Source of the DNA: Alphaproteobacteria bacterium | Lineage (GTDB): Bacteria > Pseudomonadota > Alphaproteobacteria > Caulobacterales > Aquidulcibacteraceae | DNA length: 33,880 nt | Assembly: GCA_018971945.1 (NCBI GenBank) | Contig: JAGWZH010000024.1 | Coordinates: 1-33,880, forward strand | Direction of reading: 5' to 3' | In this document: piece after piece, positions 9,516-33,880 of the stretch | Layout of the letters: every line of letters starts with the position of its first letter | Position numbering within the stretch: the stretch's first letter is position 1 | Made by a program: the position numbers and the translations under genes | The notes under the pieces: generated by a model | The model's database searches: none | What the model was told of the DNA's origin: nothing | The model's input: the letters and a program-made list of their open reading frames with translations, nothing else

Positions 9516-9550
9516 GACGCATGCGGGGGACAACGCGCTGCTCTTGGCTG

Positions 9551-16327: not shown

Positions 16328-16730
16328 TCCTTTAGGGGTCATTTCTGCGCCTCATGCTCCCAAGGACGCCGGCTTCTCGCTTGTGGAGGCGCTTGTGGCT
16401 CTTTTTCTCTTTGGCGCAGCGGCGGTGGGGCTTGCGCAGCTGCAAGCCCAGTCCCTGCGTCTGTTGCAGGAAACCGAGACAGCCTCGCTTGGGGGACTTC
16501 TGGCGCAAAACACGCTGGTTGAGACCCTGGCCGTCCAGATCCCCCCCAGCGTGGGCGTCACCGAAGGTCAGACCCAGCTCGCTGGGCGCGCCTGGGTGTG
16601 GCGGCGCGCGATCGAAGCGACTGAAGATCCAATGATTGTGCAGATCTCTGTGACGGTGTTTGCTGAGGGCGAAGACCATCCCGTCGCGCAAGCCATGGCG
16701 TTCGCGCAAGGGGGACAACCCGGCCCATGA
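16308..16730 (+). CDS. gspI: Minor pseudopilin GspI
   Basis: The 140-residue tip pseudopilin has cleavage site KDAG|FSLVEALVALFLFG (Gly22, Glu at +5), followed by the GspI-like segments LLAQNTLVETLA and GRAWVWRRAIEAT. GGAG at 16298-16301 is 6 bases before GTG 16308 and 9 before TTG 16311, and both starts are possible. The overlap with gspH is 20 bases. Confidence 0.88.
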   Translation: MLNGSADPLGVISAPHAPKDAGFSLVEALVALFLFGAAAVGLAQLQAQSLRLLQETETASLGGLLAQNTLVETLAVQIPPSVGVTEGQTQLAGRAWVWRRAIEATEDPMIVQISVTVFAEGEDHPVAQAMAFAQGGQPGP

Positions 16731-17335
16731 GCCATCAAAACGCCCCCGGCCAAGCAGGCTTCACGCTTGTGGAGGCCCTGGTTTCGCTTTTCGTGTTCGG
16801 ATTGATCGCTGCAGGGGCGACGGGCCTTTTGATCCAGGCGGCGCGGGCGCAGCTTCAGGCCGCGGAAGCGCACGAGGCGCTCGCCAGCCTGCAGACGGCG
16901 CGCTCATTGCTAAGCGGGGATCTCGCCCAGATGGCGCCCCGAGCGCCACGGTCGGCCCTGAATGCAGGGCAGGGCCCAATCTTTGTGGGTGGAGATGAAG
17001 AGGTCGGGCTCGGTTTTGTCCGATCGGCGATGGTTGGCGATGGCGGGCCTTTGCCGTCCAATCGCCTTTCCTATGTCGCCTACGCCATCGAGAATGATCG
17101 CCTCCTGCGCCGTGTCCGGACTGATCTTATAGCGCCGGCCGCGCCAGCGGAGGACGATCAAATTCTGCTTGAAGGGGCGAAGAATTTGAAATTCGCCTTT
17201 TTCGACGGGATCGTGTGGCATGACCAATGGATCGCCATGGATGGAGGCCTGCCCCGGGCCGTGGCCTTGACGGGGGAAGTCCCCCGCTACGGGCCGATCC
17301 GCATCGCGGTTCTGACCGCGGAGACCTGGCCATGA
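16727..17335 (+). CDS. gspJ: Minor pseudopilin GspJ
   Basis: The 202-residue protein has prepilin site GQAG|FTLVEALVSLFVFG (Gly11, Glu at +5). The conserved C-terminal region contains LLEGAKNLKFAFFDG and PRAVALTGEV, as in GspJ/PulJ. GspI, GspJ and GspK form the tip that starts pseudopilus assembly. ATGA overlap with gspI. Confidence 0.92.
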   Translation: MSHQNAPGQAGFTLVEALVSLFVFGLIAAGATGLLIQAARAQLQAAEAHEALASLQTARSLLSGDLAQMAPRAPRSALNAGQGPIFVGGDEEVGLGFVRSAMVGDGGPLPSNRLSYVAYAIENDRLLRRVRTDLIAPAAPAEDDQILLEGAKNLKFAFFDGIVWHDQWIAMDGGLPRAVALTGEVPRYGPIRIAVLTAETWP

Positions 17336-18342
17336 CCGCTCAGCGGGGCAAGCCCCCGGCATGGGGCCCGGAAGCCGGCGCCGCCCTGGTGACGGTTCTG
17401 GTGTTGCTCGCTGTGATGGCGGTTCTGGCGACCGCGCTTGTGGAGGCGGCGCGGTTCAGCCTGGCGCGGCTTCATAACCAGGAGCAGATGAGCCAGGCCC
17501 GATGGTATCTTTTCGGGGCGGAGCGGGTCGCTGCAGCGCGGGCTGGCGAGGCGATCAGAGCGCTCGAGGGGGGAGGCGCGGACTTTTTATGGCAGGGCTT
17601 TGAGGCGAGCTATCCCATCGATGGAGGCGCTGTCAGCCTTACCGTCCGGGACGGCTCGAACTGCTTTAATCTCAACAGCCTGATCACTGGCGATGATGAG
17701 GGAGGTACAGCTTCGAACCCCGCCGCCCAAGTGGAGTTCTTGGCCATTATCGAACAATCAGGCGCACAGGTCTTCAATGCCGAAGGCCTTGCAGCGGCGC
17801 TGACCGATTATCTGGATACGGACCAAATACCCCTGCCGGGAGGGGCTGAAGACGAACCCGGCGCCGCGTCGGACCGCTATCGCACGGCCAATGTGTTGAT
17901 CGGCGATGTCAGCGAGCTCCTGGCCGTCCGGGGTTTCACGCCCGACATCGTGGCGCGCCTTGCGCCCTTCGTCTGCGTCCGGCCCAGAGCCGCGGTCAGC
18001 ATGGTCAATATCAATAGTTTGCAGGCCCAGGATGCGCCCTTCTTGACCGCGATGTTTGGGGGGGCTTTGTCTTTGCAGGCCGCCCAGGCCCTGATTGCCG
18101 CCCGGCCTTTGGGGGGATGGCGGGACGTGGAGACGTTTTTCGATGACCCCCGTCTGGCGGCCCTTGAACCCAGCGACGGCTTCAAAGCCCGGTTTGGGGT
18201 GCGCCCACGCTATCTTGTGATGATAGGGCGGGTCCGCTGGCAGGGGGTGGAGGAAAGCTCCGCGGCGCTGATCGAGATCGGTCCGCCGTCGCGGATCGTG
18301 CGACGGGTCTTGGGCGCGCAAGTCACGGAGCGGTCGGTATGA
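17332..18342 (+). CDS. gspK: Minor pseudopilin GspK (tip subunit)
   Basis: The 336-residue protein begins with a short leader and EAG|AALVTVLVLLAVMAVL (Gly16). As usual for GspK, the +5 Glu of other pseudopilins is absent (here Thr). VRDGSNCFNLNSL and the helix-hairpin-helix-like segment AVSMVNINSLQAQDAP, followed by LIAARPLGGWRDVETFF, are hallmark regions of the large GspK globular domain. Two Cys (in SNCF and FVCV) could form a disulfide. ATG 17332 overlaps the gspJ stop. Confidence 0.94.
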   Translation: MTAQRGKPPAWGPEAGAALVTVLVLLAVMAVLATALVEAARFSLARLHNQEQMSQARWYLFGAERVAAARAGEAIRALEGGGADFLWQGFEASYPIDGGAVSLTVRDGSNCFNLNSLITGDDEGGTASNPAAQVEFLAIIEQSGAQVFNAEGLAAALTDYLDTDQIPLPGGAEDEPGAASDRYRTANVLIGDVSELLAVRGFTPDIVARLAPFVCVRPRAAVSMVNINSLQAQDAPFLTAMFGGALSLQAAQALIAARPLGGWRDVETFFDDPRLAALEPSDGFKARFGVRPRYLVMIGRVRWQGVEESSAALIEIGPPSRIVRRVLGAQVTERSV

Positions 18343-19625
18343 GGGGGCGAAGACAAGGGATTCTGGCGCTCTTGGCGGGGGACGATCCCAGCGGTCCCAT
18401 GGCCTTCGCCGTGCTTGCGGGAGAAGGCTCAGGCCCTGAAACCGCCCCTCTTGCGCAAGGGGTGCTGACGGCGGATCAACGAGGCGGGGCGCCGGCGGCG
18501 CGACCGTCTCGCACCATCCTGATCCTGCCTGCTTCCCTGGGACGATTGACCCGGGCGGCGCTGCCGGCGCGGACCGACGAACAGGCCCGGGCGGCGGCGC
18601 GGTTCTTGTTGGAAAGCAGCCTGGCGACAGACGGGGCGGGGCTGCACTATGCGGTGGGCGCGGCTCAGAATGCGGAAGGGGATCGGCTCCTGGCGGCGAT
18701 CGATCCGGCGCTGCTGCAGCGGTTTCTGGACCGCTGCCGCCAGCACGGGGCGGAGCCTTTCATCGTGGTGTTTGACTGCGCGGCGCTGCAGCCGGCCCCG
18801 GGGGAGGCGAAGGCGGTGGAAGGAGGGGACCGGCTGGTGATCGGGGCGGGAGCGCAGGGTGGGTTGTCGCTTGAGTCGGCCCTCGCCCGGACGGTTGCGC
18901 CACGCTGGCTGCAGTCCTTGCCCGAACCTTTACGGCGGATCGTTTATGTCGGGCCGGACGCCCCCGCCCTGCAAGAAGCGGTCGGGCCCTCAATCGAGGT
19001 GCGCCGCGCACCCCTCGCGCCGACGCTTGAGGTTTTGGCGCGTGACGCCCTCGCTGCGAAAGAGACTGCGCCGAATTTGCGCCAAGGGACGTTCGCTGCA
19101 GGCGCTGGGGGGCAGGCCAGAGCCGGCCGTGGATGGAAACTCGCGGGCCTTCTGGCGGCGGCGGCGATCCTGTCGCACGCAGCGGCCCAGGCGGTCGCAG
19201 GCTTCCGCGACGGCCAGGAGGCGAGCGCTGTGGAAGCGCAGACCCAGGCCCAGCTCCGCACTCTTGACCCCGCCCTTGCTGAGGGCGCAGACCTCGGCCC
19301 TGCGCTCGCGGCTCTCTCCAACAGCCTGCAAAGGGCGGCCCCACACCCGATCTTGTCGGTGAGCGAGGCCCTGACCGAAACCCTGAGGGCTGCGCCGGAG
19401 GCGCGATTGGACAGCCTGACCTATGAGGCAGGCGCTTCCCGCATCCGGGCGGTGGTGTCGAGCCCTGCGCCATCGGCCCTCGCCGCGGTCGTCGCCGCCC
19501 TGCAGGCCAAGGGCCTCGACGTGATGGTCTCCCCTGGCGCTTCAAGCCTGGTCCGGGCCAGCCAAACCCTGGAGATCGCCGCGCCGTCGCCGGCTCAGCA
19601 AGAGGAGGGCAGGGAAGGCCCATGA
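18339..19625 (+). CDS. gspL: Type II secretion platform protein GspL
   Basis: The 428-residue protein has a cytoplasmic actin-like region (residues 1-250) that in this family binds GspE. The NLRQGTFA motif (246-253) seen in many GspL proteins comes next, then one membrane helix (about 266-288) and a periplasmic ferredoxin-like domain ending near residue 415. It is followed directly by gspM, its usual partner. ATGA overlap with gspK. Confidence 0.9.
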   Translation: MRGRRQGILALLAGDDPSGPMAFAVLAGEGSGPETAPLAQGVLTADQRGGAPAARPSRTILILPASLGRLTRAALPARTDEQARAAARFLLESSLATDGAGLHYAVGAAQNAEGDRLLAAIDPALLQRFLDRCRQHGAEPFIVVFDCAALQPAPGEAKAVEGGDRLVIGAGAQGGLSLESALARTVAPRWLQSLPEPLRRIVYVGPDAPALQEAVGPSIEVRRAPLAPTLEVLARDALAAKETAPNLRQGTFAAGAGGQARAGRGWKLAGLLAAAAILSHAAAQAVAGFRDGQEASAVEAQTQAQLRTLDPALAEGADLGPALAALSNSLQRAAPHPILSVSEALTETLRAAPEARLDSLTYEAGASRIRAVVSSPAPSALAAVVAALQAKGLDVMVSPGASSLVRASQTLEIAAPSPAQQEEGREGP

Positions 19626-20095
19626 GGGAAAGCTTTGAAGCCTTCTGGCGCGCCCGCACCGAGCGGGAGAGGCTCTTGCTGTCTGCGACGCTGTGGCTCA
19701 GCCTCTTGGCGGCGGCGCCGGCGCTCGTATGGCAATCGGCAAGCCATTATCGCTCTGAGGCGAAACAGCGCCTTCAGCGGGCGGAAGCGCTTCACGCGCA
19801 GGCCGTCGCCATCGATCCGGCGGCTTTGGTCGCGGCTCGGCCAAGAACAGAGCAGGACCTGCAGGATTTTGTCGGCGCGCGCGCTCTAGGCCTTGCAATG
19901 TCTGTCGCCCGGGTTGAGCGCCAAGGGCCAGACCGGCTTCGCTTCGTGTTTGAACCGGGTGACAGTCTCGCGGCGCTCAGGCTTGTCGAAGCGCTCACCC
20001 AGGCGGGACTTTCGGTTGACCGGGTCGCGCTTGTCCGGGTTGATGGAAGCAACCTTGTGGCGGCCGAACTCGATGTTTTGGGAGCGCGATCATGA
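19622..20095 (+). CDS. gspM: Type II secretion platform protein GspM
   Basis: The 157-residue bitopic protein has a short cytoplasmic start, a membrane helix (about 18-38) preceded by RTERERLLLS, and a small periplasmic ferredoxin-like domain (SVARVERQGPDRLRFVFEPG). It matches GspM in size and position. It pairs with GspL in the inner membrane platform. ATGA overlaps at both ends. Confidence 0.87.
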   Translation: MRESFEAFWRARTERERLLLSATLWLSLLAAAPALVWQSASHYRSEAKQRLQRAEALHAQAVAIDPAALVAARPRTEQDLQDFVGARALGLAMSVARVERQGPDRLRFVFEPGDSLAALRLVEALTQAGLSVDRVALVRVDGSNLVAAELDVLGARS

Positions 20096-20979: not shown

Positions 20980-22215
20980 TCAAAGGGCCTCTATGGCCTC
21001 GCGCACCCGCCTGCGCTCCTGCGAACCCCTCGGCAGGGATTGCTCAAGCGCTTCCCAGCGTCGTCGCGCCTGCGCAGGATCGCCGCGGTCGGCGGCGATC
21101 TCCCCCAATCGCCAAAGGGCCTGGGCGTCCCCCGGCGCCAGAGCGAGGACGCGCCCATGCGCTCGTTCGGCGTCCTGGGAGCGCCCCAAGACATCATAGG
21201 CCCGGGCCAGCCGTCGCCAGCCATCAAGATCATCGGGCGCGCCCCGCAGACGATCCTCGAGACCGGCCACCATGTCGTTGATCATAGCGGCGCGATCCTC
21301 AGGAGCGAGGGCCTCGGCGGCGGCGACCTGCTCGCGCGTGGGGCCCTGTGGGGACGGGGCTGCCCCGCTTGCGGCTTCCGCCGAAGCGATCTGACGTTCT
21401 ACCGTCTCTCGCCATGGGGCGTCGGGAGGGGTGTCGCTCAAAAGCGCGCGCCAATCCCGCAAGGCGCCCTCAAGATCTCCCCCTTGGCCCCTCGCAAGCG
21501 CCAGATAATAGCGCGCCTGGGGGTCGGAGGGCGAGGCGGCCAACATGGCGTTGAAAATCTCTTTGGACACCTCATCAACCCACCCCTCGCCAGCAATCAC
21601 ACGCGCTTCGGCGTACTCGGCGGCAAGCTGGCGATCCGCTCCCGCGACGAGCTCATGGGCCCGCGCATAGGCCTCGACCGCCTCAGCATTGCGGCCGAGC
21701 CGGATTTGGGTGCGCGCCAGCAGCGCCCAGCCCTGGGGATCGTCGGGCGTGGCGGCAAGCCGCGCGCTCAAGGCGGTGACCATTTCGTCCATCTGCGCAT
21801 GCATGGGGTCATCGCCGACCATCTCGGATGGCGGGGCTGCTTGCCCCCGCCCGAAGGCCTGATCGGGGTCGCCCAGAGACAGATAAAGGGCGCCGGCCAG
21901 GATCGGCGCCAGCAACAGGACCGCTACGGCCGCCCCTTGCGCGGGGGGATAATCTGACGCTTGAGGACTGGCCCCGCCGGCCGGTTGAGCGGCAACCAAA
22001 AGGCGGCGCTCGACTTCTGCGCGTGCGGCCAGCAGGTCGGCTGCGTCTACGCCTTGGGCTGCGCCTTGCGCGTCGAACTCGGCAAGCTGGTCGCGATAGA
22101 CCGCGGCGTTGAACATCTCCGGGGCGGCGAGCGGCTCGGCCTTTTGAAGAAGGGGACGCACCAGGATGGCGCAAACGCCCAAGGTGAGAATGGCGGCGCA
22201 CAAAAACAGAAGCAT
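20980..22215 (-). CDS. ccmI: Cytochrome c maturation protein CcmI (TPR chaperone for apocytochrome c)
   Basis: The 411-residue protein has two membrane helices (about 2-22 and 92-114). Between them is the typical CcmI loop with NAAVYRDQLAEFD and the RAEVERRLL region, and a large periplasmic TPR domain follows, with repeats such as DPQGWALLARTQIRLGR and DLDGWRRLARAYDVLGR. CcmI holds apocytochromes c for haem ligation by CcmF/CcmH. Here it is the last gene after the cyclase (3-base gap, CGGAG ribosome-binding site 6 bases upstream) instead of next to ccmF/ccmH. Confidence 0.93.
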   Translation of the reverse strand: MLLFLCAAILTLGVCAILVRPLLQKAEPLAAPEMFNAAVYRDQLAEFDAQGAAQGVDAADLLAARAEVERRLLVAAQPAGGASPQASDYPPAQGAAVAVLLLAPILAGALYLSLGDPDQAFGRGQAAPPSEMVGDDPMHAQMDEMVTALSARLAATPDDPQGWALLARTQIRLGRNAEAVEAYARAHELVAGADRQLAAEYAEARVIAGEGWVDEVSKEIFNAMLAASPSDPQARYYLALARGQGGDLEGALRDWRALLSDTPPDAPWRETVERQIASAEAASGAAPSPQGPTREQVAAAEALAPEDRAAMINDMVAGLEDRLRGAPDDLDGWRRLARAYDVLGRSQDAERAHGRVLALAPGDAQALWRLGEIAADRGDPAQARRRWEALEQSLPRGSQERRRVREAIEAL

Positions 22216-22218: not shown

Positions 22219-24069
22219 TCACTCCGTTTGAAGGGCGAAGCTATAGACCTTGACTGGTTCAGGCACCCCCTTGAGGGTGACATTCCCCAAAGCCTGCGCC
22301 TGGCTCGGGGCCCCCGCCGCCTCATAGCAGGCTTGGCTGAACAACATCCGCGCCCCTACCTCCTTGTTGGCCGCCTCCAAGCGGGCGGCGATGACGACGA
22401 CCTGGCCATAGGCGGTGTAGTTAAACCTCCGGGCGCCGCCAAAATTGCCTACAAGCCCCTCTCCGGAATGCAGCCCGATGCGGGTGCAGCCAAGCACCCG
22501 GCCATGCCTTGCCTTGACTTGACGGCGATAGGCTTCGCTGAACGCATCCATGTCCTTGGCGCAGGCAAGGGCCCGCACGGCATGATCGGCGGAGGCGACA
22601 GGGGCGCCGAACAAGGCGATCAGTCCGTCCCCGGTCAGCTTGTCCACCATGGCCTCGTGCTTCCAGAGCACCTCAATCAGCCCATCAAAATAGCCGTTGA
22701 TGATGGTCTCGAACTCCTCGAGGGGCGTCTGGGCGACCAGGGTCGAGAAATTCTCGATATCGGTCACCATCACCGTGATGGTGCGCCGGTCCGCCCCGAT
22801 CCGCACCGGCTCCTCCCCCTCCACGATGCGGCGGATCACCTGCGGGGCGAGATAGCGTTCAAGGGTTGAGGCGAACAAGGTGCGCTCCCCCTGCAGCTGC
22901 GAGGCCACCAGCCGGCTGAGAAGAAAAAACGACAAGGCGAACGCAAGAAAAGTGGTCGCCAGAGGGATCATGACCCCATAAAGCCCGTAGGCGCCAAAGC
23001 CAAACAACACGGCCGCCGCCATGCCGCCCAAAGCCGAAAGCGCCGCCACCCACCAAGAATGCGTCGCCCGGCCGAGCCAGGCTCCCCCCAAAGCCGCGGC
23101 AAGCACGACCAACAGATCGCCCAGCCAACCCAAAGAGCCGACGCGATCGCCTTGCATCAGCTGGGAAAGCACATGGGCGTGAATCTCCACCCCCGGGGTG
23201 CCGTCTTCATGGCCCGCCCGAAAACGCAGCGGGGTGAAATGCATGTCTTCGGGCAAGACCTGCTGATCAGAGGCGGAGGCTCTCGTGACCCGTCCGATCA
23301 AAACGATCCTGCCCGCCAGGGCCCCATCGGGGAGTTCATCGACAAGATCGGCGGGGACGACAGGGGTGATTGATCCCCGATCGGCGTCGTCTGTCTGCTC
23401 GCGCGGGGAGCGAAAGCGAATGGCGAACCGTTCGCTTGGCGTCTCCACGCCAAGCTGGTCAAGGATCGCTGCGCCAAAACTGCGCCGCCTCTCCGGCGCC
23501 GGATCATAAAAGCGTACCCCATCATCAAACACGTCTTTGACCAGAACGAGCGCGTCCGCATAGGTGAAGGAGGGGACCACGGGATAATCGATCCCGGGCC
23601 TGCGGCCAGGATCCACCGCGGCGACGACAGGGGCTGAAACCTGGGCCGCCTGTTGGGCGAAACGCGCGAATTCGGCCGTTGAGCGGAAATCATCCAACAG
23701 CACGTCAACGCCGATCACCCGGGCCCCCAGGCGATCAATGTCAAGGATCAGCTCGCCCAGCCAGACCCGGTCGATAGGGGAGATGCAGCCGCAGTCCGAA
23801 GCCTCGCGCATCTCCTGCATCGCCGCCTCGTCGATCTTGACGATGGTGATGGGGATGGACCCTTCGTTGGACGCCGCTGGACCCAGAAGTCCAATCCTCA
23901 AATCATAGAGAAAATTCTCGACTGTGCGCAAAGGGGCTGTGGGCCCGAGCGCCAGGGCCAGGCACGCGGCAAGCAGGGCAAGACCTGCGGTTGAGACGAG
24001 GGCCATGAGGCCCTTGGCGCGGGCCAGCTCCTCTCTGAGACGGCCGAGCCAAACCAAAGCACCCGACAT
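22219..24069 (-). CDS. CHASE2-domain class III adenylate/guanylate cyclase with altered active site
   Basis: The protein has 616 residues: one N-terminal helix (about 24-42), a CHASE2-like extracytoplasmic sensor domain (about 45-305), three membrane helices (about 315-388) and a C-terminal class III cyclase domain (about 425-610). Metal-binding Asp437 (TDIENFS) and Asp481, Lys477, Thr552 and the transition-state Arg563 (AARLE) are present. In the usual GDxVN motif, Asp and Asn are replaced by Gln556 and Val559, so the catalytic Asn is missing. It should make cAMP or cGMP unless the change disables it. I chose ATG 24069 with GGAG 6 bases upstream; a GTG at 24075 overlaps that site. It is flanked by a CpdA-like phosphodiesterase and ccmI on the same strand. 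Confidence 0.92.
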   Translation of the reverse strand: MSGALVWLGRLREELARAKGLMALVSTAGLALLAACLALALGPTAPLRTVENFLYDLRIGLLGPAASNEGSIPITIVKIDEAAMQEMREASDCGCISPIDRVWLGELILDIDRLGARVIGVDVLLDDFRSTAEFARFAQQAAQVSAPVVAAVDPGRRPGIDYPVVPSFTYADALVLVKDVFDDGVRFYDPAPERRRSFGAAILDQLGVETPSERFAIRFRSPREQTDDADRGSITPVVPADLVDELPDGALAGRIVLIGRVTRASASDQQVLPEDMHFTPLRFRAGHEDGTPGVEIHAHVLSQLMQGDRVGSLGWLGDLLVVLAAALGGAWLGRATHSWWVAALSALGGMAAAVLFGFGAYGLYGVMIPLATTFLAFALSFFLLSRLVASQLQGERTLFASTLERYLAPQVIRRIVEGEEPVRIGADRRTITVMVTDIENFSTLVAQTPLEEFETIINGYFDGLIEVLWKHEAMVDKLTGDGLIALFGAPVASADHAVRALACAKDMDAFSEAYRRQVKARHGRVLGCTRIGLHSGEGLVGNFGGARRFNYTAYGQVVVIAARLEAANKEVGARMLFSQACYEAAGAPSQAQALGNVTLKGVPEPVKVYSFALQTE

Positions 24070-24197
24070 CCGCACCTCCAGCCCATGGGGTCAAAACATG
24101 TCCCCGCTGCCTTCCCATCATGCTCCCGCGGCGGGGGGAAGCGGCCCCCGCGAGCCTTCAGGGCGGCGCTCGCGCGCATCGCCCGCGCGCGGTCGGA

Positions 24198-25031
24198 TCA
24201 GGCTTTGATAAAAGGAAACTGGTAATGAACCGCGGGGGCGAAATCGCCCGCCTGACACACATGGGTCGTCAGCACGCCCTGACGCCACATCAAAAGTGAA
24301 AACCCGACGGGTTCGTCGGTGAGGATTTCGCGACCGTCCGGAACCCGCATATCCACGGGGGAAAGATCAAGGGTGAGCTGGATTGAGGTCGCCGGCGAGA
24401 CCGCAACGATCGTGCCGGCGAAAGGGGCATGAAAGCCTCGGTGCAGGTGCCCGCAGATGACGGTGCGAACATGGCGCTGATCCCGCAAGGTCTTGGACAA
24501 CCGTACAATCCATTCCTCCTTCGGGCCAGGATCCATCCACTGAATGCCGCTGGCGATCGGAGGGTGATGCAGGGCGACCACGGTCGGCTTGCGTTTGTTT
24601 TTGGACAGGGTGGACTTCAGCCACTTGGCGCGCTTGGCGCAAAAGGCCCCGTTGTTTTGACCCTCCTCAAGGGTATCGACCATGACCACGCGGAGATCGT
24701 CGAAGTCCAACACATACTGGATGAAGCCGTTGGCGTCGGTCTGGACCTGCGGCGCCTTGAAGGCCGCCTGCAGGGGGCTGCGCAAATCATGATTGCCGAC
24801 GCCAAAATAAATCGGGATCTCTGAGGCTTCTACAATCCTTGCAAGTTCGGCATATTCCTCCGGTTCGCCCCGATCGACGAGGTCTCCGGTCGCCAGAATA
24901 GCGACAGGACGGGGCTTGAGCGCGTGAATGGCCTTCAAAGCCGTCCGCAAGCGCGCCTCGTTGCGCGCCTGGTTCAAAGGGTCCTTGTCGGAGGTGATGT
25001 GCAGGTCGGTAATCTGGGCGATGGTCAGCAC
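24198..25031 (-). CDS. CpdA-like calcineurin-type phosphodiesterase
   Basis: This is a 277-residue metallophosphoesterase with all five motifs of the class III cyclic-nucleotide phosphodiesterases (CpdA/GpdQ type): TDLH (8-11), GDLVDRG, GNHD, HHPP and GHLHRG. These residues bind two metal ions. CpdA proteins hydrolyse cAMP in the cytoplasm, and the adjacent cyclase makes that substrate plausible. I chose the GTG at 25031 because GGGAGG lies 8 bases upstream and the protein then starts at MLTIAQITDLH as in the family; longer frames add atypical residues. The gap to the cyclase is 128 bases. Confidence 0.86.
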   Translation of the reverse strand: MLTIAQITDLHITSDKDPLNQARNEARLRTALKAIHALKPRPVAILATGDLVDRGEPEEYAELARIVEASEIPIYFGVGNHDLRSPLQAAFKAPQVQTDANGFIQYVLDFDDLRVVMVDTLEEGQNNGAFCAKRAKWLKSTLSKNKRKPTVVALHHPPIASGIQWMDPGPKEEWIVRLSKTLRDQRHVRTVICGHLHRGFHAPFAGTIVAVSPATSIQLTLDLSPVDMRVPDGREILTDEPVGFSLLMWRQGVLTTHVCQAGDFAPAVHYQFPFIKA

Positions 25032-25506
25032 GATTATTCCCTCCCCGCGTTTGCTTACAGCCACCAAAGCCCAATAATGCTCCAATATCAATTCCATGCC
25101 GCGCAGTCCTGCGGGCTTTTTGGCCGCTTGTTGTTCGCGCCATGGCCCAAAAGGTTTGTTGGCAAGCCTTTCTGTTGCAGACATTGACCACCGACCTTGC
25201 GGCTTTTTGTTCTGAAGAAGCGTTCGATTGGCTCCCTTGGGGCTCTATTGGGGGCCAGCGCGCGCCTTCTGGAAGCGCGTCGCGTGAACGTGCGTCTGCG
25301 AAAACGCGCCCGTCAGCGCGCTTCCGCTTGTCTCACACCCCGCAAGGATCAGCCCTCAGCGCGGGGTGAGGGTCGTGCCCAGGACATATTGTCAGAGATG
25401 AGCGAGGGCTGGCGCGCGGACTGCAAGGGTCAGCGCGCGCCGGCCCTTGCGTTGGCTTGTCATCGGGAACCGATGCGCGGTCTGCCCACCCTTTGTCGGG
25501 GTCGAA
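25032..25506. other. 475-bp intergenic region with two large hairpins
   Basis: No convincing gene is visible. It separates ccmH from the phosphodiesterase and presumably holds the phosphodiesterase promoter. Hairpin one (25332-25370) pairs CTCACACCCCGC with GCGGGGTGAG, with a 2-base bulge. Hairpin two (25406-25446) pairs GGGCTGGCGCGC with GCGCGCCGGCCC through 12 positions, one of them G-T. Neither has a T-run on the minus strand; either could act as a terminator for the electron-transfer/ccmFH operon. Confidence 0.5.
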
Positions 25507-25977
25507 TCACGAGGCGGGCTCGCTCTGCTCGGCGAGCCTGGCCTTCTCCTCAGGCGTCAGAGGGCTTGGGTCCGGCGTCTCGGCGCTGCGGCGGATGAAG
25601 CGGACCGCGGCAAGCCCGCCCAAGACGAAGATGATCAGCGGCCCGCCCCAAAGCAGGGCGGTTTGCGCCGTCCATTCGGGGCGCAAACGCACCGAAGCGC
25701 CATAGCGCTCGGTCACCGCCGCCAGAACCGCTTCGTCATCATCCCCCGCCGTGATGCGCTCGCGCACGAAAGTCCGCAGGGCGCGGGCCACGGGGGCGTT
25801 GGAGTCGTCGATGGTCTGGCCCTGGCACACAAGACAGCGCAGTTCCCGGCTCAAATCCCGCGCCCTTGCCTCCAGCGCGGGATCGGCAAGGCGTTCCTCC
25901 GGCTCGAGGCCCGGCGAAGCACTGGTGAACAGGGCAAGGAATACGGCCAGCGCCGCCCAGGCGTTCCGCCCGCTCAT
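25507..25977 (-). CDS. ccmH: Cytochrome c maturation protein CcmH
   Basis: The 156-residue protein has a signal peptide and a periplasmic three-helix domain with the redox motif LRCLVCQ (Cys48, Cys51). A C-terminal membrane helix (about 110-130) follows. CcmH keeps apocytochrome CxxCH cysteines reduced and works with CcmF and CcmI. The ATG overlaps the ccmF stop (ATGA). Confidence 0.95.
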   Translation of the reverse strand: MSGRNAWAALAVFLALFTSASPGLEPEERLADPALEARARDLSRELRCLVCQGQTIDDSNAPVARALRTFVRERITAGDDDEAVLAAVTERYGASVRLRPEWTAQTALLWGGPLIIFVLGGLAAVRFIRRSAETPDPSPLTPEEKARLAEQSEPAS

Positions 25978-28001
25978 GGCGCCGCCCCTTGCGTCTCCGG
26001 CGGGTCCAGGTTCGGTCGCTGTCGCGGATCGGGGTTTGGGGCGAGGCGGCGTTGCGCCGGCGCGCCCACACGGTGCCGCCGATCGAGCAAGGAAAGAAGC
26101 CCACCACCTGCGAGCAAAAGCGCCCCCGCCCAAAGACACCCGATCACAGGATGGCGCCAGGCGCGGATGACCCGCGCCCCATCCTCCCGGGGGTCGCCCA
26201 GCGCCACATAGAGATCGCCCCCAAGGGTCAAGCGGATCGCCGCTTCGGTGGTCTGCTGCTCGGCCACGGGATACCATCGCCGTTCTGGTCGAAGCGCATC
26301 GATCTGTCGGCCTTCCCGCAAGACCGTGATCGCTGCGGTCTCGGCGATATAATTATCGACGCGGCGTTCCTCGACGCCTTCATAAACCAGGGTAAAGCCT
26401 GCGATCTCCATCCGCTCGCCTGGGCGCAAGGCCTCTGACGCCTCGGTTTTCCAAACCGTCCCGCCCAGCATGCCGATCAGCATGATCCCAAGAGCGGCAT
26501 GGGCGAGCGTCCCCCCCCAATAGGCCCTCGGCAGGCCGGCGGCGCGCTTCAAGACAAGCTCAAAGGACCGTCCGGTTCCAAGTCCTGCGCGGACCGCAAG
26601 GTCGGTCGCTGAACCGGCGATGATCCATACGGCCATCGCCACTCCCAGCGCCGCAAGGCCGCGCCCCTCTCCCGTCAGCCAAAGCCCGAGGCCTGCGCAG
26701 ACCAGGGTGAGGGCGGCGGCGACCCGAAGCCGGCGGGCGGCGGCGCGCCAGTCCGCCCGCTTCCAAGGCAGGGCGACGCCGATGGACATCGCCGCAGCGA
26801 TCAAGGCGGCGATGGGGGTGGCGGTGGCGTCGTAATAGGGCGCGCCCACCGACACGATGTCGCCAAGGGCGACTTCGGCAATCACCGGCCAGAATGTCCC
26901 AATCGCGACGGTGGACAAGAGCGCAGCGATGGCCAGATTGTTGAACACCAAAGCGGATTCCCGACTGACCGGCTTGAAGCCGCCCCCGGCCCGCAACGCC
27001 CCGGCGCGCAGGGCGAACAACGCCAAAGCTCCCCCCGTCAGCGCCAAACACAAGGCCAGAAGCAGCATGCCGCGGTCGGGATCATTGGCGAAGGCATGGA
27101 CGCTGGTCAAAAGCCCCGAGCGTACGACAAAGGTGCCCAAGGCGGAGGTGGAAAAGGCGATGATGGCGAGCAGAATGGTCCAGGACTTCAAGGTGTCGCG
27201 CTTTTCAACAACCGCTGCGCTATGCAACAGCGCGGTGCCCGCAAGCCAGGGCATGAGAGACGCGTTTTCAACCGGGTCCCAAAACCAAAACCCGCCCCAG
27301 CCCAGCTCATAATAGGCCCAGGCCGATCCAAGCGCGATGCCAAGGGTCAACGCCGTCCAGGCCAGAAGCGTCCAGGGACGAACCCAGCGGGCCCAAGCCG
27401 GATCGACCCGACCTTCCAAAAGCGCAGCCACGCCGAAGGAAAACGCAATGGAGAAACCGACATAACCCAGATATAAGAACGGCGGGTGAAACGCGAGCCC
27501 CGGGTCCTGCAAGAGGGGGTTCAGGTCGCGACCATCCAGGGGCGCGGGATCCATCCGCAGAAACGGGTTGGACGTGAAAAGAACAAAGGCGAGAAAGCCT
27601 GCTCCGATAAGCGCCTGCACCCCCAAAACCCGCGCCCTGAGGGTGGGGGCGAGACGGCGGTCGAACCAGGCGACCATGGCCCCAAGCCAGGCCAGGATCA
27701 TGATCCAGAGGAGCATCGAGCCCTCATGGTTGCCCCAGACGCCGGAGATCTTGTAAAGCAAAGGCTTGGCCGAGTGGCTGTTCTGGTAGACATTGGCGAC
27801 GGAAAAGTCAGACGTCACATAGGCATGGGTCAGGGCGGCGAAGGCGGCCGTCATCAGCGCCGCCTGCAGGACCGCAGCGGTCGAGGCAAGGGCCACCGCC
27901 TGCGGATGACGCGTATGACCCCCCCAAAGCCCGCCGGCCGCCTGGGCGATGCACGCCAGCAGGCTCAGGATCAAGGCCAGATGGCCAAGTTCGATGATCA
28001 T
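25974..28001 (-). CDS. ccmF: Cytochrome c haem lyase subunit CcmF
   Basis: The 675-residue polytopic inner membrane protein has about 15 helices. Key features are NSHSAKPLLYKISGVWGNHE (74-93), FHPPFLYLGYVG, and the WWD-type haem-handling motif WGGFWFWDPVENASL (235-249). A periplasmic loop near the C-terminus contains AALRPERRWYP-like residues. It transfers haem from CcmE to apocytochromes. Length and motifs are normal. Its ATG overlaps the decahaem gene stop (ATGA), tying it to the electron-transfer operon. No ccmE, ccmG or ccmABCD lie in the window. Confidence 0.96.
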   Translation of the reverse strand: MIIELGHLALILSLLACIAQAAGGLWGGHTRHPQAVALASTAAVLQAALMTAAFAALTHAYVTSDFSVANVYQNSHSAKPLLYKISGVWGNHEGSMLLWIMILAWLGAMVAWFDRRLAPTLRARVLGVQALIGAGFLAFVLFTSNPFLRMDPAPLDGRDLNPLLQDPGLAFHPPFLYLGYVGFSIAFSFGVAALLEGRVDPAWARWVRPWTLLAWTALTLGIALGSAWAYYELGWGGFWFWDPVENASLMPWLAGTALLHSAAVVEKRDTLKSWTILLAIIAFSTSALGTFVVRSGLLTSVHAFANDPDRGMLLLALCLALTGGALALFALRAGALRAGGGFKPVSRESALVFNNLAIAALLSTVAIGTFWPVIAEVALGDIVSVGAPYYDATATPIAALIAAAMSIGVALPWKRADWRAAARRLRVAAALTLVCAGLGLWLTGEGRGLAALGVAMAVWIIAGSATDLAVRAGLGTGRSFELVLKRAAGLPRAYWGGTLAHAALGIMLIGMLGGTVWKTEASEALRPGERMEIAGFTLVYEGVEERRVDNYIAETAAITVLREGRQIDALRPERRWYPVAEQQTTEAAIRLTLGGDLYVALGDPREDGARVIRAWRHPVIGCLWAGALLLAGGGLLSLLDRRHRVGAPAQRRLAPNPDPRQRPNLDPPETQGAAP

Positions 28002-29953
28002 GGATGGGTCGCTCCAACAAACGCGGTCCGCGCCAAAGGCGTCCAGCCCTCAGCGCGCAGCGCCGACGTTTCGGCGCTCATCGCCGGTTGTCCCTCCAAA
28101 GCATGATAGCCATGGCAACTCGCGCAGCTTGAGGGAATTCGTCCCCGGCGGCCATCGCTGGCGTGGCAGGTCTGGCAGGTTTCGATGCTTGGGATCAAGA
28201 CGTCGCCAGCGCTCGCGGAGGTCTCCGCAGCGTGGCAGTCGAGGCAGGTCATGCCGGTTTCATGCGGGGCATGGGGGAAGCGGGCGGCGGGGAGGAACTG
28301 ATCGCGCAGACGCACCGGCTCGACAGCGTATCCAAAGCCGCCATCGGCGGGAGGGGTGACCACATGACACCCAAAACAGGCCCCCCGGGGAGCGAAGAGC
28401 CCATGGATCCGCCGTGACGCCTCCTGGTCGGCAACGCGAAACACCGCGCGTCCCGGCGGCGGCGGCCTCAGCCCCGCAGGCCCAGGCCGGAAGCGCTCGG
28501 CCTCGGCCGCCGGGGTCAGGCCAAGCACCCGATTGACCACCCGGGCCTGATAGAAATCCCGCAGCGTGGCCACCGCGAGTTCCGGCGTGCCGTGCCTCAA
28601 GGCGCGGGGGACGCCGTTGACCGTATCGAAGGTCAAAGAATGGCAAGCCGCGCAATGCCGCTCCATCGCGATGGGACGAAACAAGGCGCGCGCCTCGTCG
28701 GCCTCATGGCAGTCCGCGCAGCCCAGGCCCTCTTCGCCATAACCGAAAGAGGGGTCGAGATCGCGGGCGATGGCTGTGACGCAGCCATCTTTGTCAAGAT
28801 GCACCGCATGCGGAAACACTAGCCCCGAACGGTCCCCGGCCGCGCCTGCGGGTAATAAAGGCGGATCGTACCCGCGAAAATTGGCCTGGCCGATTTCAAA
28901 CCCGTCGCAGGCTTCCGCTGGGGCGTCCGCTGCGCTCTCGCGCGCGGCGCGCTGGGCCTCAAGGGCTGCGATGTCCCAGCGACGCACCGGATCGGGCCCG
29001 GCCCCGACGTCGGAAAGGGTGGGCCTGAACTCCGGATGGGCGGCCATGAAATCCGCCGCATCGCCCAGGTCTGTGTCCGCGAGGCGTTCGCTCATCCCAG
29101 CATGGCAGCCCACGCAGCTCATATCCGCCACGGGCAAGACGCCGTCAGGTCCATTGTGCTCGGTATGGCAGGCAGTGCAGCGATCGCTCGGCTTGCCGAA
29201 AAGTTCCGCCGTGGAGATTAGAAAAGCCTGGAATGGCCCCGCCTCCGGCTGCGCCCTCAGCATCCGGCCGGGATCGGCATGGTGCAAGGTCGACTGGTGG
29301 CAGTCGACGCAGGTCTCGTCCTCTACGCTTACAAAGGGCGTCTTATGGCAGGCGCCGCAACTGTCGATCGCCCCGGCGTGGGCATGAGAGGTCTCGCCGG
29401 CCAGCCAGAGGCCTTCTGCGATGGCCCGGTCGGCGCCGCCGCTCACCGGCGCCCCGGGCGCCAGGCGCGTCATCGGGAAGGTCAGCCCAAGCAGGAGAAT
29501 CGTCAGACCCAAAGCCCATGCCGAGGCCCTTTTCGACAACCAGGCGCCGCGGAGGCTGAAGACCTTCTTGACCTTGTCGGCGCGCAAATCCGCACTCTGT
29601 GGCTGAACCCGCGCCACATCGATTTGCAGGCCGCCCCCGTCGGTCGCTCGGATCGAAAGGTCAAACGGTCCGATCTTGAGTTCCGCGGGCCCGCGGGCGA
29701 GGTCGAATTGGGCCTGATCAACAAAGCGACGGTCCACCATGATCCGTCCGGCCGCAGAGGCGGATTGGACCCGCACAAGGCCCGGCGAGGGCGCCGTGAT
29801 CTTGGCATGGAGAAGGCCCACGGCGAGGTCTTGAAGGTGCACATCGCTGCCGCTCGCCCTGCCGACAAGATAGGCGGGTCCGGCCGCCGTGGCTGTTCGC
29901 ACGCTTTCGCGTCCGTCCGCCCGCCGCGTCACATAGCGTATGGTCGCCGTCAT
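27998..29953 (-). CDS. FHA-like domain fused to a periplasmic decahaem cytochrome c
   Basis: The protein has 651 residues. An N-terminal FHA-like fold (about 1-115) shows VGRASGSDVHLQDLAVGLLH. The FHA Gly-Arg and His are present, but the phosphopeptide-binding Ser is Gly46. One membrane helix spans about 144-162, and a large C-terminal region carries ten CxxCH haem sites starting at Cys199, 215, 259, 280, 412, 434, 526, 570, 593 and 610. Haem attachment puts the C-terminus in the periplasm and the FHA part in the cytoplasm. It probably accepts electrons from the membrane cytochrome encoded just upstream (7-base gap) and passes them to a periplasmic or outer membrane acceptor. It resembles multihaem c3/c7-like proteins in haem spacing; I recognise no named family. 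Confidence 0.85.
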   Translation of the reverse strand: MTATIRYVTRRADGRESVRTATAAGPAYLVGRASGSDVHLQDLAVGLLHAKITAPSPGLVRVQSASAAGRIMVDRRFVDQAQFDLARGPAELKIGPFDLSIRATDGGGLQIDVARVQPQSADLRADKVKKVFSLRGAWLSKRASAWALGLTILLLGLTFPMTRLAPGAPVSGGADRAIAEGLWLAGETSHAHAGAIDSCGACHKTPFVSVEDETCVDCHQSTLHHADPGRMLRAQPEAGPFQAFLISTAELFGKPSDRCTACHTEHNGPDGVLPVADMSCVGCHAGMSERLADTDLGDAADFMAAHPEFRPTLSDVGAGPDPVRRWDIAALEAQRAARESAADAPAEACDGFEIGQANFRGYDPPLLPAGAAGDRSGLVFPHAVHLDKDGCVTAIARDLDPSFGYGEEGLGCADCHEADEARALFRPIAMERHCAACHSLTFDTVNGVPRALRHGTPELAVATLRDFYQARVVNRVLGLTPAAEAERFRPGPAGLRPPPPGRAVFRVADQEASRRIHGLFAPRGACFGCHVVTPPADGGFGYAVEPVRLRDQFLPAARFPHAPHETGMTCLDCHAAETSASAGDVLIPSIETCQTCHASDGRRGRIPSSCASCHGYHALEGQPAMSAETSALRAEGWTPLARTAFVGATHP

Positions 29954-29960: not shown

Positions 29961-30827
29961 TCACCAGAAATAAAAGACGCTGACGATGTGGGCGATCAGC
30001 GCGGCAATGAGACCGAAGGTGCAGGGCACATGCACATAGAGCCAAAGCTCAAGAAGCGCCTTGTAGCGCGCATAGCGCCGCACCCGCAGCAACAAGGCGC
30101 GCCTGCGTTCCAAGAGCGACACCACCGGGCCGAAACTGTCGTCGGGGTCAGCGTCTGCCTCGATTTCGGCGCGCAGGGCCAAGATCGCGTGGCGCGTAGG
30201 GCAGGAGCGGGGCTGGGCGTTCAAACGCGCCAGCGGCCCCCGCACAAGCTCGGTCTTTTCGATCGCGTCCTTGATCCGGGCCGAAAACGCGTCCGGCAAA
30301 GGCTGGGCGGCGATGCGCAATTCCCGGTCGATGGCGGCGATCGCCTCCAGCATCTCCTTGGAACTGGTCTCTCCGCGGTTGTCGCTCATCCGCCTTGGGA
30401 TGACGGCGTAGACATAGACGCCGAACAGCCCCGACAGGATGACGATCATCATCAAGACATAAGCCAGGGTGTGGATGTTCCAGCCGACCTGAAATCCCGC
30501 ATGTAAGGTGGCGATCAGGCTCAGAGACAAACCCAGATAGACGTGGGCGGAGGTCCAGCCTTTCAGGCTCCAGCCGCCGCCGGTGATCGCGCGCTTGCGC
30601 AGCCCAAGCAGCGTCAACCAGAGGATCAGACCAGCGCTGATGGCGCCGAGCGTGTAGCCCAACCAGCTGCCGCCATGATGGCGCGGCTCGATGTCGATGA
30701 TGACGTAGGCGAGCAACGCGAAGGCGCTGAGCGCGCCCGCCGCCCAGGCGTAGCGATAACCAGCATGCTTCAAAAAGCTTTCATGGCGAGCGCTGGCGCG
30801 CCTCTGCACAGATTGGGAGGCCCTCAT
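29961..30827 (-). CDS. Dihaem cytochrome b-type membrane protein
   Basis: The 288-residue protein has five likely membrane helices (about 27-46, 54-76, 94-112, 119-143 and 262-287) and a cytoplasmic helical loop (about 145-258). Helix three contains His95 and His109, and helix five His266 and His280. Each pair is 14 residues apart, the spacing of bis-His haem b ligands in quinol- or ferredoxin-linked cytochromes b. It would move electrons from the iron-sulfur flavoprotein across the membrane to the decahaem protein, or to and from quinones. The ATG overlaps the preceding stop by one base (TGATG). Family name not recognised. Confidence 0.78.
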   Translation of the reverse strand: MRASQSVQRRASARHESFLKHAGYRYAWAAGALSAFALLAYVIIDIEPRHHGGSWLGYTLGAISAGLILWLTLLGLRKRAITGGGWSLKGWTSAHVYLGLSLSLIATLHAGFQVGWNIHTLAYVLMMIVILSGLFGVYVYAVIPRRMSDNRGETSSKEMLEAIAAIDRELRIAAQPLPDAFSARIKDAIEKTELVRGPLARLNAQPRSCPTRHAILALRAEIEADADPDDSFGPVVSLLERRRALLLRVRRYARYKALLELWLYVHVPCTFGLIAALIAHIVSVFYFW

Positions 30828-33283
30828 CACAACGGGTCCGCTTGCGCCAAACGGGCCGCTTCCAGATAGGTCTCCGGAGAAACCCGGATCGCTGCGCCGG
30901 TCGGGCAAGCGCGCACGCAGGCGGGGCCGCCATCGACCCCCTTGCACATGTCGCATTTGACCGCGACTTTGGGGGTCTGCGCCTTGGCTCCGCCGAGGCG
31001 TGTTTCGACCCAGTCAGGATCGGGCTGTCCGGGGCCAGGTCCAAGGCCGAGCAAAAGCCACTGCAACAGGCCTGGTTTTTTGGGCGGCGTGCGCTCCATC
31101 TGGATGACGCCGTAGGGACAATTGCGCTGACAGGCGCCGCAGCCGATGCATGCGTCGGTGATGAAGACCTCCCCATCCGGGGCGCGATGGATGGCGTTGG
31201 GAGGACAATCAGACATGCAGTGGGGATGTTCGCAATGCCTGCAGGAGGTAGGCACATGCAGGTGGGCGAAGGTTCGTCCCGCCTCCCGGTCAAGGCGCGA
31301 GATCCCCTGATGGGTTTCTGCGCAGGCCGTCTCGCAATTGTCGCAGCCAATGCAGAGGGTCTCATCGATCAAAAGCGCGTCGGTGGCGTCGCCCAAGCCT
31401 TCCTGGATCAGGAAGGAGGCGACGGAGCTGTACATGTCCACGACGGATCCGAAGCCCGCTTTTTGCCCCTCGATAAACTGGTTCACCTGACGGCGGGAGG
31501 CGACCTGCTGCTCGACCCGGCGCGCCAGCGCCGGCTCCTTGGCGAGAATGCGCCGGAACGCTTCCCCCGGCAGCACAAGCGCTTCGGTCTTGACGGCGGC
31601 CCTAACGCTGGCGTTCCGCTTGCCCTCGTCAAACAAGGACATCTCGCCGACATAGGCGCCAGCGGGCACATAAGACAAAAAGACCTGCTTTGAGCCAAGG
31701 GTCTTTTCCACCACCGCGCTGCCGGAGCGGATAAGGAAAATATCATAGCCAATCTCGTCTTCGCGGATCAGCGTCTCCCCGGCGCGAAACGTTTTCAGCG
31801 CCGCGCCGTCCAAAGCCTCCTCAAACAGGGCTTTGTCGAGGTCTTGGCCAAACACCTGCTTGAGCATCCGCTCGCTTACCAGCCGGTCGATGCGGCGTTT
31901 GACCCCCGGCACCGTCGCCATCAGTTTGAGCGCGGCCGTCCGCGGGGCCTCGATGACGATGGTTGGGGCTTGGGCTGCGCGGACCGTTGCGCCCCGGCGG
32001 CGCCCCGAGATCAAACCCACTTCGCCGAAAATCTGACCCTTGCCAATCGGCACGGTGATCGCGGGGTTAGACGGGTCAACCTCCACCGCGACCGCCCCTT
32101 CGACAATGGCGAAGAGAGAGGAGCCAAGCTCGTTGCGGGTGATGATCGCCTCTCCCGGTGCAAAGGCGTGCACTTCAGAATCCAGCAAAAACTCCCGCAT
32201 TTGGAGCGGGGACAAGTCCTGCAGCACCTCCACCCCGGAACGGAACGCCTCTAGCCAGTCTTCCAGGTCGCGTTTGATCGGCAAAGGATCGGTCTTGGCG
32301 CGCAGCAGCGGCTCATCGGCGGGCTTGAGATCGACCACCCCGGCGACGCGCTCGATGACGTCATATCCCTGGTTCAGGCAGTGCTTGATCAGGGGATAGC
32401 CGGCCAAGGCGCCGATGACATAAAGACCGGAGACGCTCGTTTCAAAAGACGGGGTGAGGACCGGAAACGCTTCCCTGTCCGGCCCCGTGAACGCCACCCC
32501 GCAGGCCTCCAGAAACGCTCGGGGTGGGGTGGCGCCCATGCGGGCGATGACGCGGTCCACCCGAAGCCGCGCCTCGCCCTCTCTGGTGTCGACGAGCAGC
32601 ATGCCGGCCTCAAGAGAGCGGGGAGCGGCCTCCGTCAGAACGACGATCCGCCCTTCGTCCCTCGCCTCCTCCAGGAGGGCCACATTCGCCGCCTTCGCGC
32701 GCGAAAAATCCGCCCCGCGGTGCAGAAGCGTCACCCGGTTGGCAAGATCCGGCTCGGCCAGCCCCAGGGCGTTCTCGATGCCCGCGTCGCCGCCGCCGAC
32801 AACGACAATGTCTTGATCGAAATGTTCCCGGGGATCGTCGAGCTGGTATTGGACCAAAGGGAGATCAGCGCCCGGAATCTTCAAGTGGTTGGGGTTGCCT
32901 GACGTGCCGATGGCCAAAACCACGACCTTGGCGCGCACCTCGCCCCCGGAGCGCAAAGACAGAACAAAGGCGCCGCGTTGACCCGAAATCGCGGTCACTT
33001 CCGCGTTGAAGCGCACCTTGATCCGCGCCCGCGCCGCCTCATTGTCCCACACGCCGAGCACATGCTCACGCCGGCCAGCATCAAAAGACAAGTCGCTGCG
33101 CAGGGTCAGCTGCTGCGGGGTCGCCATGACGTGCTTGCCCCGCTGATAACGAAATATCGTGTCGCTCAGATGGTCGGTTTTCTCCAAAAGCAGGTGCGAC
33201 AGGCCACGGGCCGACGCCCGGGCGGCGGCGCTCAAGCCAGCTGGGCCTGACCCGATGATCACAAGGTCGGCGCTCTCGGTCAT
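30827..33283 (-). CDS. Fusion: FAD/NAD(P) oxidoreductase, two cyclic-nucleotide-binding domains, 4x[4Fe-4S] ferredoxin
   Basis: The protein has 818 residues. An N-terminal thioredoxin-reductase-like flavoprotein module (1-325) has FAD motif GSGPAG (11-16) and NAD(P) motif GGGDAG (163-168), but no redox CxxC. Two CRP-like domains (about 355-470 and 485-600) follow. Both keep the phosphate-binding cassette: FGEVGLISGRRRGATV (Glu421, Arg430) and VGEMSLFDEGKRNASV (Glu547, Arg556). The C-terminus (640-800) has 16 Cys in four clusters like DmsB/HybA: Cys644/647/650/654, 681/684/689/693, 712/715/718/722 and 777/780/789/793. No signal peptide, so it is cytoplasmic. ATG 33283 has GGGAG 6 bases upstream. 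It is the first gene of the operon and the likely electron entry point, possibly switched by cAMP or cGMP. Confidence 0.9.
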   Translation of the reverse strand: MTESADLVIIGSGPAGLSAAARASARGLSHLLLEKTDHLSDTIFRYQRGKHVMATPQQLTLRSDLSFDAGRREHVLGVWDNEAARARIKVRFNAEVTAISGQRGAFVLSLRSGGEVRAKVVVLAIGTSGNPNHLKIPGADLPLVQYQLDDPREHFDQDIVVVGGGDAGIENALGLAEPDLANRVTLLHRGADFSRAKAANVALLEEARDEGRIVVLTEAAPRSLEAGMLLVDTREGEARLRVDRVIARMGATPPRAFLEACGVAFTGPDREAFPVLTPSFETSVSGLYVIGALAGYPLIKHCLNQGYDVIERVAGVVDLKPADEPLLRAKTDPLPIKRDLEDWLEAFRSGVEVLQDLSPLQMREFLLDSEVHAFAPGEAIITRNELGSSLFAIVEGAVAVEVDPSNPAITVPIGKGQIFGEVGLISGRRRGATVRAAQAPTIVIEAPRTAALKLMATVPGVKRRIDRLVSERMLKQVFGQDLDKALFEEALDGAALKTFRAGETLIREDEIGYDIFLIRSGSAVVEKTLGSKQVFLSYVPAGAYVGEMSLFDEGKRNASVRAAVKTEALVLPGEAFRRILAKEPALARRVEQQVASRRQVNQFIEGQKAGFGSVVDMYSSVASFLIQEGLGDATDALLIDETLCIGCDNCETACAETHQGISRLDREAGRTFAHLHVPTSCRHCEHPHCMSDCPPNAIHRAPDGEVFITDACIGCGACQRNCPYGVIQMERTPPKKPGLLQWLLLGLGPGPGQPDPDWVETRLGGAKAQTPKVAVKCDMCKGVDGGPACVRACPTGAAIRVSPETYLEAARLAQADPL

Positions 33284-33791: not shown

Positions 33792-33880
33792 GATGGGGCG
33801 CTGGCTGGGGGCGTTGGCTGACTGGGGGCGCTGGCTGACTGGGGGCGTTGGCTGACTGGGGGCGTTGGCTGACTGGGGGC
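33792..33880. repeat. 17-bp tandem repeat reaching the window end
   Basis: GGGGGCGTTGGCTGACT repeats at 33807-33823, 33824-33840 (one change, C for T), 33841-33857 and 33858-33874. The first six bases of another copy run to 33880. A shortened degenerate copy precedes it at 33792-33806. There are no spacers. The array must continue beyond the window or mark a contig end. Confidence 0.95.

Follow-up and report, generated by a model that had tools for sequence, protein, structure and literature searches.

A CHASE2 class III cyclase and a phosphodiesterase near the genes for a putative cyclic-nucleotide-binding redox protein in Alphaproteobacteria

A cyclase-phosphodiesterase pair and the putative redox protein R

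The stretch analysed here (the window; 33,880 nucleotides) is one whole contig, C68 (JAGWZH010000024.1), from an alphaproteobacterial assembly of 3.4 Mb in 233 contigs (GCA_018971945.1). It carries genes for a predicted CHASE2/class III nucleotidyl cyclase and for a predicted class III phosphodiesterase (PDE), together with a gene for a putative redox protein, R, that has two cyclic nucleoside monophosphate (cNMP)-binding domains. An earlier note on this DNA had described the cyclase and PDE genes as adjacent and on the strand of an operon headed by R, and had credited that operon's first protein with two cNMP-binding domains; the reading frames and domain matches bear out both statements. The three genes are:

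22219..24069, minus strand: CHASE2/class III nucleotidyl cyclase, 616 aa, Pfam matches above cut-offs
24198..25031, minus strand: class III PDE, an SpdA/CpdA/Rv0805-like metallophosphoesterase, 277 aa, GTG start
30827..33283, minus strand: R, with a YpdA-like FAD/NAD(P)H region, two cNMP-binding domains and a C-terminal 4Fe-4S part, 818 aa

Across the assembly, class III cyclase domains were matched twice and cNMP-binding domains six times, with R accounting for two of the six. For R, the ATG at 33283 was taken as the start, and the reading frame stays open as far as a TTG at 33574. Its Pfam content comprises two cNMP_binding stretches (above cut-offs), a pyridine nucleotide-disulphide oxidoreductase domain and a 4Fe-4S domain, with the cNMP-binding domains (cNBDs) placed between the NAD(P)H/FAD domain and the Fe-S part. 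The middle of the protein aligns by profile with the tandem cNBDs of PKA RI-alpha and PKG chains. Glu421/Arg430 and Glu547/Arg556, which we take to be the phosphate-binding cassette residues of the two nucleotide pockets, are invariant in all 127 distinct R sequences compared (95 near and 32 distant, as defined below), as are 16 Cys in the C-terminal part (127/127). In a structure model of R (mean pLDDT 69.4), the flavin domain and both cNBDs are folded and the Fe-S part is poor. The N-terminal FAD/NAD(P)H region aligns with the bacillithiol disulphide reductase YpdA/Bdr, from which R differs in scoring far below the family cut-off (135.4 bits against NCBIfam TIGR04018, cut-off 339.9) and in being fused to cNBDs and an Fe-S part.

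The cyclase matches CHASE2 (83.5 bits) and Guanylate_cyc (46.8 bits) above the Pfam cut-offs, as scored on a 618-aa reading frame. By a simple scan, it has one N-terminal hydrophobic stretch, then the CHASE2 domain, a cluster of hydrophobic stretches and finally the catalytic domain, while neither the PDE nor R has such a stretch; the topology of the three proteins would fit a cytosolic nucleotide loop. The metal-binding Asp437 and Asp481 are present in the cyclase, along with Lys477, Thr552 and Arg563. Lys and Thr at the purine positions would suggest cAMP as the product. The roles given to these residues (metal, purine and transition-state positions) follow in part PMC4215837.

The PDE starts at a GTG with the stretch GGGGAGGG in front of it. 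It matches Metallophos above the Pfam cut-off (71.5 bits, scored on a longer 328-aa reading frame), and the metal-ligand motif columns DxH, GD, GNHD, H and GHxH are invariant in 7/7 aligned sequences. It had previously been called CpdA-like, which is loose as a label, with SpdA as the best NCBIfam model (127.2 bits, cut-off 400) ahead of CpdA (98.8 bits, cut-off 225) and both scores below cut-off. The closest solved chains are Rv0805 and a phosphohydrolase, presumably GpdQ.

Read 5' to 3' on the minus strand, the genes run R, cytochrome-b-like protein, FHA-like decahaem cytochrome, CcmF, CcmH, PDE, cyclase and CcmI. The members other than the pair and R are:

29961..30827, minus strand: membrane cytochrome-b-like protein (tentative; weak cytochrome b561 match below cut-off)
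27998..29953, minus strand: FHA-like N-terminal domain plus decahaem part with 10 CXXCH (tentative; FHA-type matches below cut-off)
25974..28001, minus strand: CcmF haem lyase subunit, above Pfam cut-off
25507..26277, minus strand: CcmH, above Pfam cut-off (reading-frame bounds; the real start is probably more internal)
20980..22215, minus strand: CcmI, starting 3 bp past the cyclase stop

The cytochrome-b-like reading frame is open to 30956, and its start was placed at 30827 considering that relatives mostly align from residue 42-58. The FHA-like decahaem cytochrome has a single hydrophobic stretch (143-161), between its FHA-like domain and its decahaem part. Intergenic gaps measure 475 bp between ccmH and the PDE gene, 128 bp between the PDE and cyclase genes and 3 bp between the cyclase stop and the ccmI start. 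Because of the first two gaps, the pair does not form one tight operon with R, and a single operon spanning R to the cyclase was rejected for the window. A scan of 24000-25600 for sigma-70-like promoters found none against 0.3 expected, a result that is little informative in a GC-rich genome.

Recurrence of the neighbourhood across genomes

R was found in 18 of 200 genomes of the order and in 36 of 385 genomes of the class (its own genome included), and the named strains that carry it include Phenylobacterium kunshanense and Marinicaulis flavus. We pooled the window with the best 80 of 561 relatives from a scan of named genomes (Sphingomonadales, Phenylobacterium and other Caulobacterales, and Parvularculaceae), 17 loci from the order and 34 of the 35 other R-positive genomes of the class (G610 was left out). 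This yielded 132 rows and, once five duplicate loci were removed, 127 distinct R loci. Loci whose R shares 57% or more identity with that of the window are called the near clade (95 loci) and the other 32 the distant group, a split picked post hoc. PDE counts refer to the 78 near loci with at least 6.5 kb downstream, and cyclase counts to the 60 of 95 with 8-kb flanks on both sides.

Of the 78 near-clade loci, 66 have a PDE no more than 10 kb from R; it shares R's strand in 65 of the 66 and adjoins the decahaem cytochrome gene (same strand, reading-frame gap below 400 bp) in 53/78. The window's own PDE is outside those 53, as ccm genes intervene. The neighbourhood thus recurs in many genomes, and the possibility that it is private to the source genome, which the earlier note had left to be checked, was rejected. 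Among distant loci, no PDE (0/26) and no cyclase (0/18) was found within 10 kb of R, although the nucleotide pockets are intact in 32/32. Because of this combination, the binding domains seem to have been in the module first, with the local pair added later. The local signalling circuit proposed earlier is supported in part, by the recurrent neighbourhood and by a topology that fits a cytosolic loop; PDE action on the cyclase product, cyclase activity in the window's clade and an effect on electron transfer would be its hypothetical parts.

The cyclase was searched for in 47 of the 80 named R-positive genomes. CHASE2 was present in 47/47 (several of these being histidine-kinase-like proteins) and a class III cyclase in 46/47. 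A CHASE2 cyclase lay within 10 kb of R in 13/47 genomes (0.6 expected at random) and within 35 kb in 29/47 (2.1 expected), although in one of the 29 (G226) the CHASE2 and cyclase domains are split between short frames. Distances were worked out from hand-matched coordinates, and the expectations come from random placement of all class III cyclases, with kinship ignored. At the level of whole genomes, a cyclase match at E<=1e-3 occurs in 62/200 genomes of the order (18/18 with R vs 44/182 without), and a window-like cyclase at E<=1e-30 in 99/385 genomes of the class (25/36 vs 74/349), as crossed from genome lists entered by hand.

We considered whether all nearby cyclases form one family, and a tree of cyclases rejected this; L075 is outside the tree and was judged by a separate comparison. 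Sequences shorter than 550 aa, duplicate tails and misfits to the motif pattern were left out of the tree, and eight window-type cyclases cut by the end of the locus gave no catalytic residue, some of which were fetched again. A window-type cyclase paired with a PDE near R occurs in the window, G086, G022 and G200. L073 and L075 have, next to the R genes, a longer and unlike cyclase (~750-795 aa; 20-21% identity to that of the window) separated from the PDE by 36 bp. In Phenylobacterium, the pair is not beside ccmI: dehydrogenase and TPP-enzyme genes separate it from the cytochrome, which it follows at ~5 kb, and the PDE-cyclase gap is 3 bp in G022 and G086. At one Phenylobacterium locus (L088:15276-19917), the genes between the decahaem cytochrome and the pair encode an ELFV dehydrogenase, a TPP enzyme and an aldehyde dehydrogenase. 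The pair adjoins ccmI in G200, as does the cyclase in G122.

In several sphingomonads, the cyclase near R is of a ~690-aa type. At L217-L219, this cyclase and a ~240-aa gene are close to the module's HbpS-like, barrel and decahaem genes, with no ShlB-sized gene separating the cyclase from them; at L221, L222, L224 and L226, a ShlB-sized gene and a very large gene stand in between. Pfam searches of cyclase neighbours (L223, L228, L231 and L218; other ShlB-sized genes were called by size) identified ShlB in L223, and ShlB and CHAT in L228. The ~690-aa CHASE2 cyclases form a sphingomonad family, with a 240-280-aa protein following and, at some loci, ShlB-type or CHAT-domain genes (L217-L219, L223, L228).

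A candidate signalling arm and its rivals

What the sequence itself shows is which genes and domains are present, that the nucleotide pockets of R are intact and that the neighbourhood recurs. Building on these observations, we propose that a nucleotide-regulated electron-transfer module has the cyclase and PDE as its signalling arm, a proposal that we regard as evenly balanced between right and wrong; the cyclase product, the PDE substrate, binding by R, the direction of control and the signal are what we infer. The periplasmic CHASE2 domain would receive an envelope signal, and the cytosolic cyclase domain would respond by making a cyclic mononucleotide, possibly cAMP, with the PDE as a brake that holds the nucleotide level low. 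The nucleotide would bind the two cNBDs of R and gate electron flow, which would run from NAD(P)H through the Fe-S clusters of R to the membrane cytochrome b and on to the decahaem cytochrome in the periplasm. Where a genome has the full set, electrons might go further, through an outer-membrane barrel to a surface decahaem cytochrome. CcmF, CcmH and CcmI would assemble the haems of the module. The cNBDs would be the older part, with the PDE and cyclase having joined the locus later, in the branch of Sphingomonadales, Caulobacterales and Parvularculaceae.

Several observations weigh against this proposal, apart from those given below with the alternatives that they favour. No PDE is nearby in 12/78 near-clade loci, and a cyclase is within 10 kb of R in 17/60 well-flanked near loci (26/95 near loci in all). 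In 18/47 named genomes, R's contig shows no CHASE2 cyclase at 35 kb or less from R (some contigs are short), and 11/36 R-positive genomes of the class have no cyclase match at E<=1e-30. The genomes are related, and the counts are not independent. Sphingomonad proximity is weakened as clean evidence, considering that L228, L229 and L234 carry the ~690-aa cyclase far from R or on another contig, with ShlB and CHAT genes as its neighbours in L228; part of the proximity may reflect another cluster.

The substrate of the PDE is where a competing account is strongest. An SpdA-type enzyme would clear 2',3'-cNMPs from RNA decay that would otherwise block the cNBDs of R, insulating the switch and sparing the cyclase product, and we consider this possible, if on the unlikely side. 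The SpdA model outscores the CpdA model in 6/6 PDEs tested (the window's and 5/5 further ones), which also counts against a brake on the cyclase product. SpdA itself acts on 2',3'-cNMP with undetectable activity on 3',5'-cAMP, its authors proposed an insulating role for it, and Rv0805, which with the phosphohydrolase is nearest to the window's PDE among solved chains, is cited in the same paper as ~150-fold better on 2',3'-cNMP (PMC4222275). However, the window's score is far under the SpdA equivalog cut-off (127 of 400), and the SpdA authors state that the substrates of class III PDEs cannot be read from sequence (PMC4222275).

The cyclase-like protein may instead be a weak or non-catalytic CHASE2 sensor, or a general cAMP source for CRP-like regulators, with its adjacency to ccmI reflecting regulation of cytochrome c assembly rather than a direct hold on R. 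In the window, 475 bp separate the pair from ccmH, and ccmI could be what it serves; the cyclase-ccmI gap is 3 bp, with ccmI adjacency repeated for the pair in G200 and for the cyclase in G122; and a 232-aa CRP-like protein encoded in the genome could read the same nucleotide pool. The cyclase also has Val559 where the transition-state Asn is expected (Arg563 of the N-R pair is kept), and in a tree of 83 cyclases Val is found in 9/9 members of the window's clade (support 1.0) and Asn in the other 74. Against this, 5 distinct members of the Val clade conserve the two metal-binding Asp together with Lys, Thr and Arg, and the Phenylobacterium pair is away from ccmI yet near R. Ma1120 of Mycobacterium avium has Ala at the Asn position and is an active adenylyl cyclase, and changing this Ala to Asn drastically lowers that activity (PMC4215837). 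Because Ala-bearing Ma1120 is active, we did not accept that the cyclase is simply dead; the Val-clade enzymes may be active, altered or weak. The alternative of a sensor or general cAMP source as a whole we consider distinctly improbable. Least probable, and very unlikely, is positional coincidence, in which functionally unlinked genes hitchhike in a respiratory or envelope region. Variable gene order and spacing, the absence of a nearby PDE outside the clade (0/26 loci) and the ability of sphingomonad cyclases to form their own cluster far from R would agree with it, but a same-strand PDE adjoins the cytochrome gene in 53/78 loci and cyclases are placed near R far above random expectation.

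The wider module and related systems

In distantly related Alphaproteobacteria, the genes for R, cytochrome b and the decahaem cytochrome often precede three others, which encode an HbpS-like protein, a protein of ~620 aa and a large LVIVD cytochrome of decahaem type, and the ~620-aa protein and/or the LVIVD cytochrome is within the fetched stretch at 23/32 distant and 52/95 near loci. The LVIVD-repeat decahaem cytochrome (~1,330 aa) recurs beside the barrel-like ~620-aa protein (L122:15991-19998, minus strand; L097:20102-21970, minus strand; and equivalents), and HbpS-like proteins of ~650 aa recur beside the barrel gene (L138:16506-18449, plus strand, and equivalents). In the window's genome, the LVIVD cytochrome (70-71% identity) is in pieces on two other contigs, one piece having an in-frame stop. 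The ~620-aa protein, which is encoded outside the window, has no Pfam match at E 1e-5; its low-confidence model (mean pLDDT 54.9) is an 18-stranded beta-barrel whose best solved matches are AlgE (E 7.4e-16), and MtrB is not named among the 50 listed of 775 fold matches, a list headed by AlgE.

Porin-cytochrome conduits of the MtrCAB type combine multihaem cytochromes with an outer-membrane barrel gene. The wider module resembles them in its multihaem cytochromes and a probable barrel gene, and differs in its AlgE-like 18-strand barrel model (low confidence) and in an inner-membrane donor of NAD(P)H type with cNBDs and cytochrome b. From the low-confidence model, the LVIVD cytochrome and AlgE-like barrel are a possible conduit unlike MtrCAB, and a trans-envelope electron path to the cell surface is plausible because the wider module holds the decahaem LVIVD cytochrome and a probable outer-membrane barrel. 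A more ambitious version, which we hold only tentatively and think rather unlikely, is a cyclic-nucleotide-gated conduit across the whole envelope, from R through cytochrome b, the decahaem cytochrome and the AlgE-like barrel to the surface LVIVD cytochrome, that the CHASE2 cyclase and PDE would open and close allosterically through the cNBDs on an envelope signal.

The window also carries a type II secretion cluster (9521-20095, plus strand; GspC, D, E and L by Pfam, pseudopilin-like reading frames by eye) that runs toward the cytochrome operon. In front of it are a 938-aa protein with no Pfam match (3967-6783) and a TonB-dependent receptor (6846-9515). In Shewanella, surface cytochromes are exported by type II secretion. 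At the contig end upstream of R (33800-33880), there are short repeats in tandem that read as CCCCCAGTCAGCCAACG-like on the minus strand.

Most 3',5'-cNMP effectors known from bacteria are transcription factors, channels, acetyltransferases or c-di-GMP enzymes. We found no cNMP-binding NAD(P)H electron-transfer effector in open-licence PMC literature, nor, by title or abstract among the matches listed, such a module, and no LVIVD cytochrome of this kind by title or abstract among the 15 of 19 matches listed there. Cyclic nucleotides go unmentioned in passages of PMC9226611. Several characterised systems share individual features with the locus. XC_0250/XC_0249 of Xanthomonas campestris likewise links a class III cyclase to a cNMP-binding effector enzyme altered by the nucleotide, but that effector is a cNMP-binding GGDEF protein, whereas here it would be a flavin/Fe-S electron-transfer protein, with a linked PDE and CHASE2 on the cyclase (PMC3770947). 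The cyaD1/clr locus of Sinorhizobium meliloti likewise holds a class III PDE (SpdA), a cyclase and a cNMP-binding protein, and differs in having a transcription factor as receptor and 2',3'-cNMP as the substrate of SpdA (PMC4222275). CyaC, a redox-responsive adenylate cyclase of S. meliloti, also ties a cyclase to respiratory redox state; there redox controls the cyclase, and here we propose the reverse, with the nucleotide controlling redox flow (PMC10463352).

Linkage of a cyclase to a cNMP-binding effector is therefore known (PMC3770947), and an NAD(P)H electron-transfer effector would be the new element. Because R is widespread (36/385 genomes of the class) and present in named strains, the idea is open to testing. 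If true, a cNMP-gated NAD(P)H electron-transfer protein would mean direct, fast second-messenger control of redox flow.

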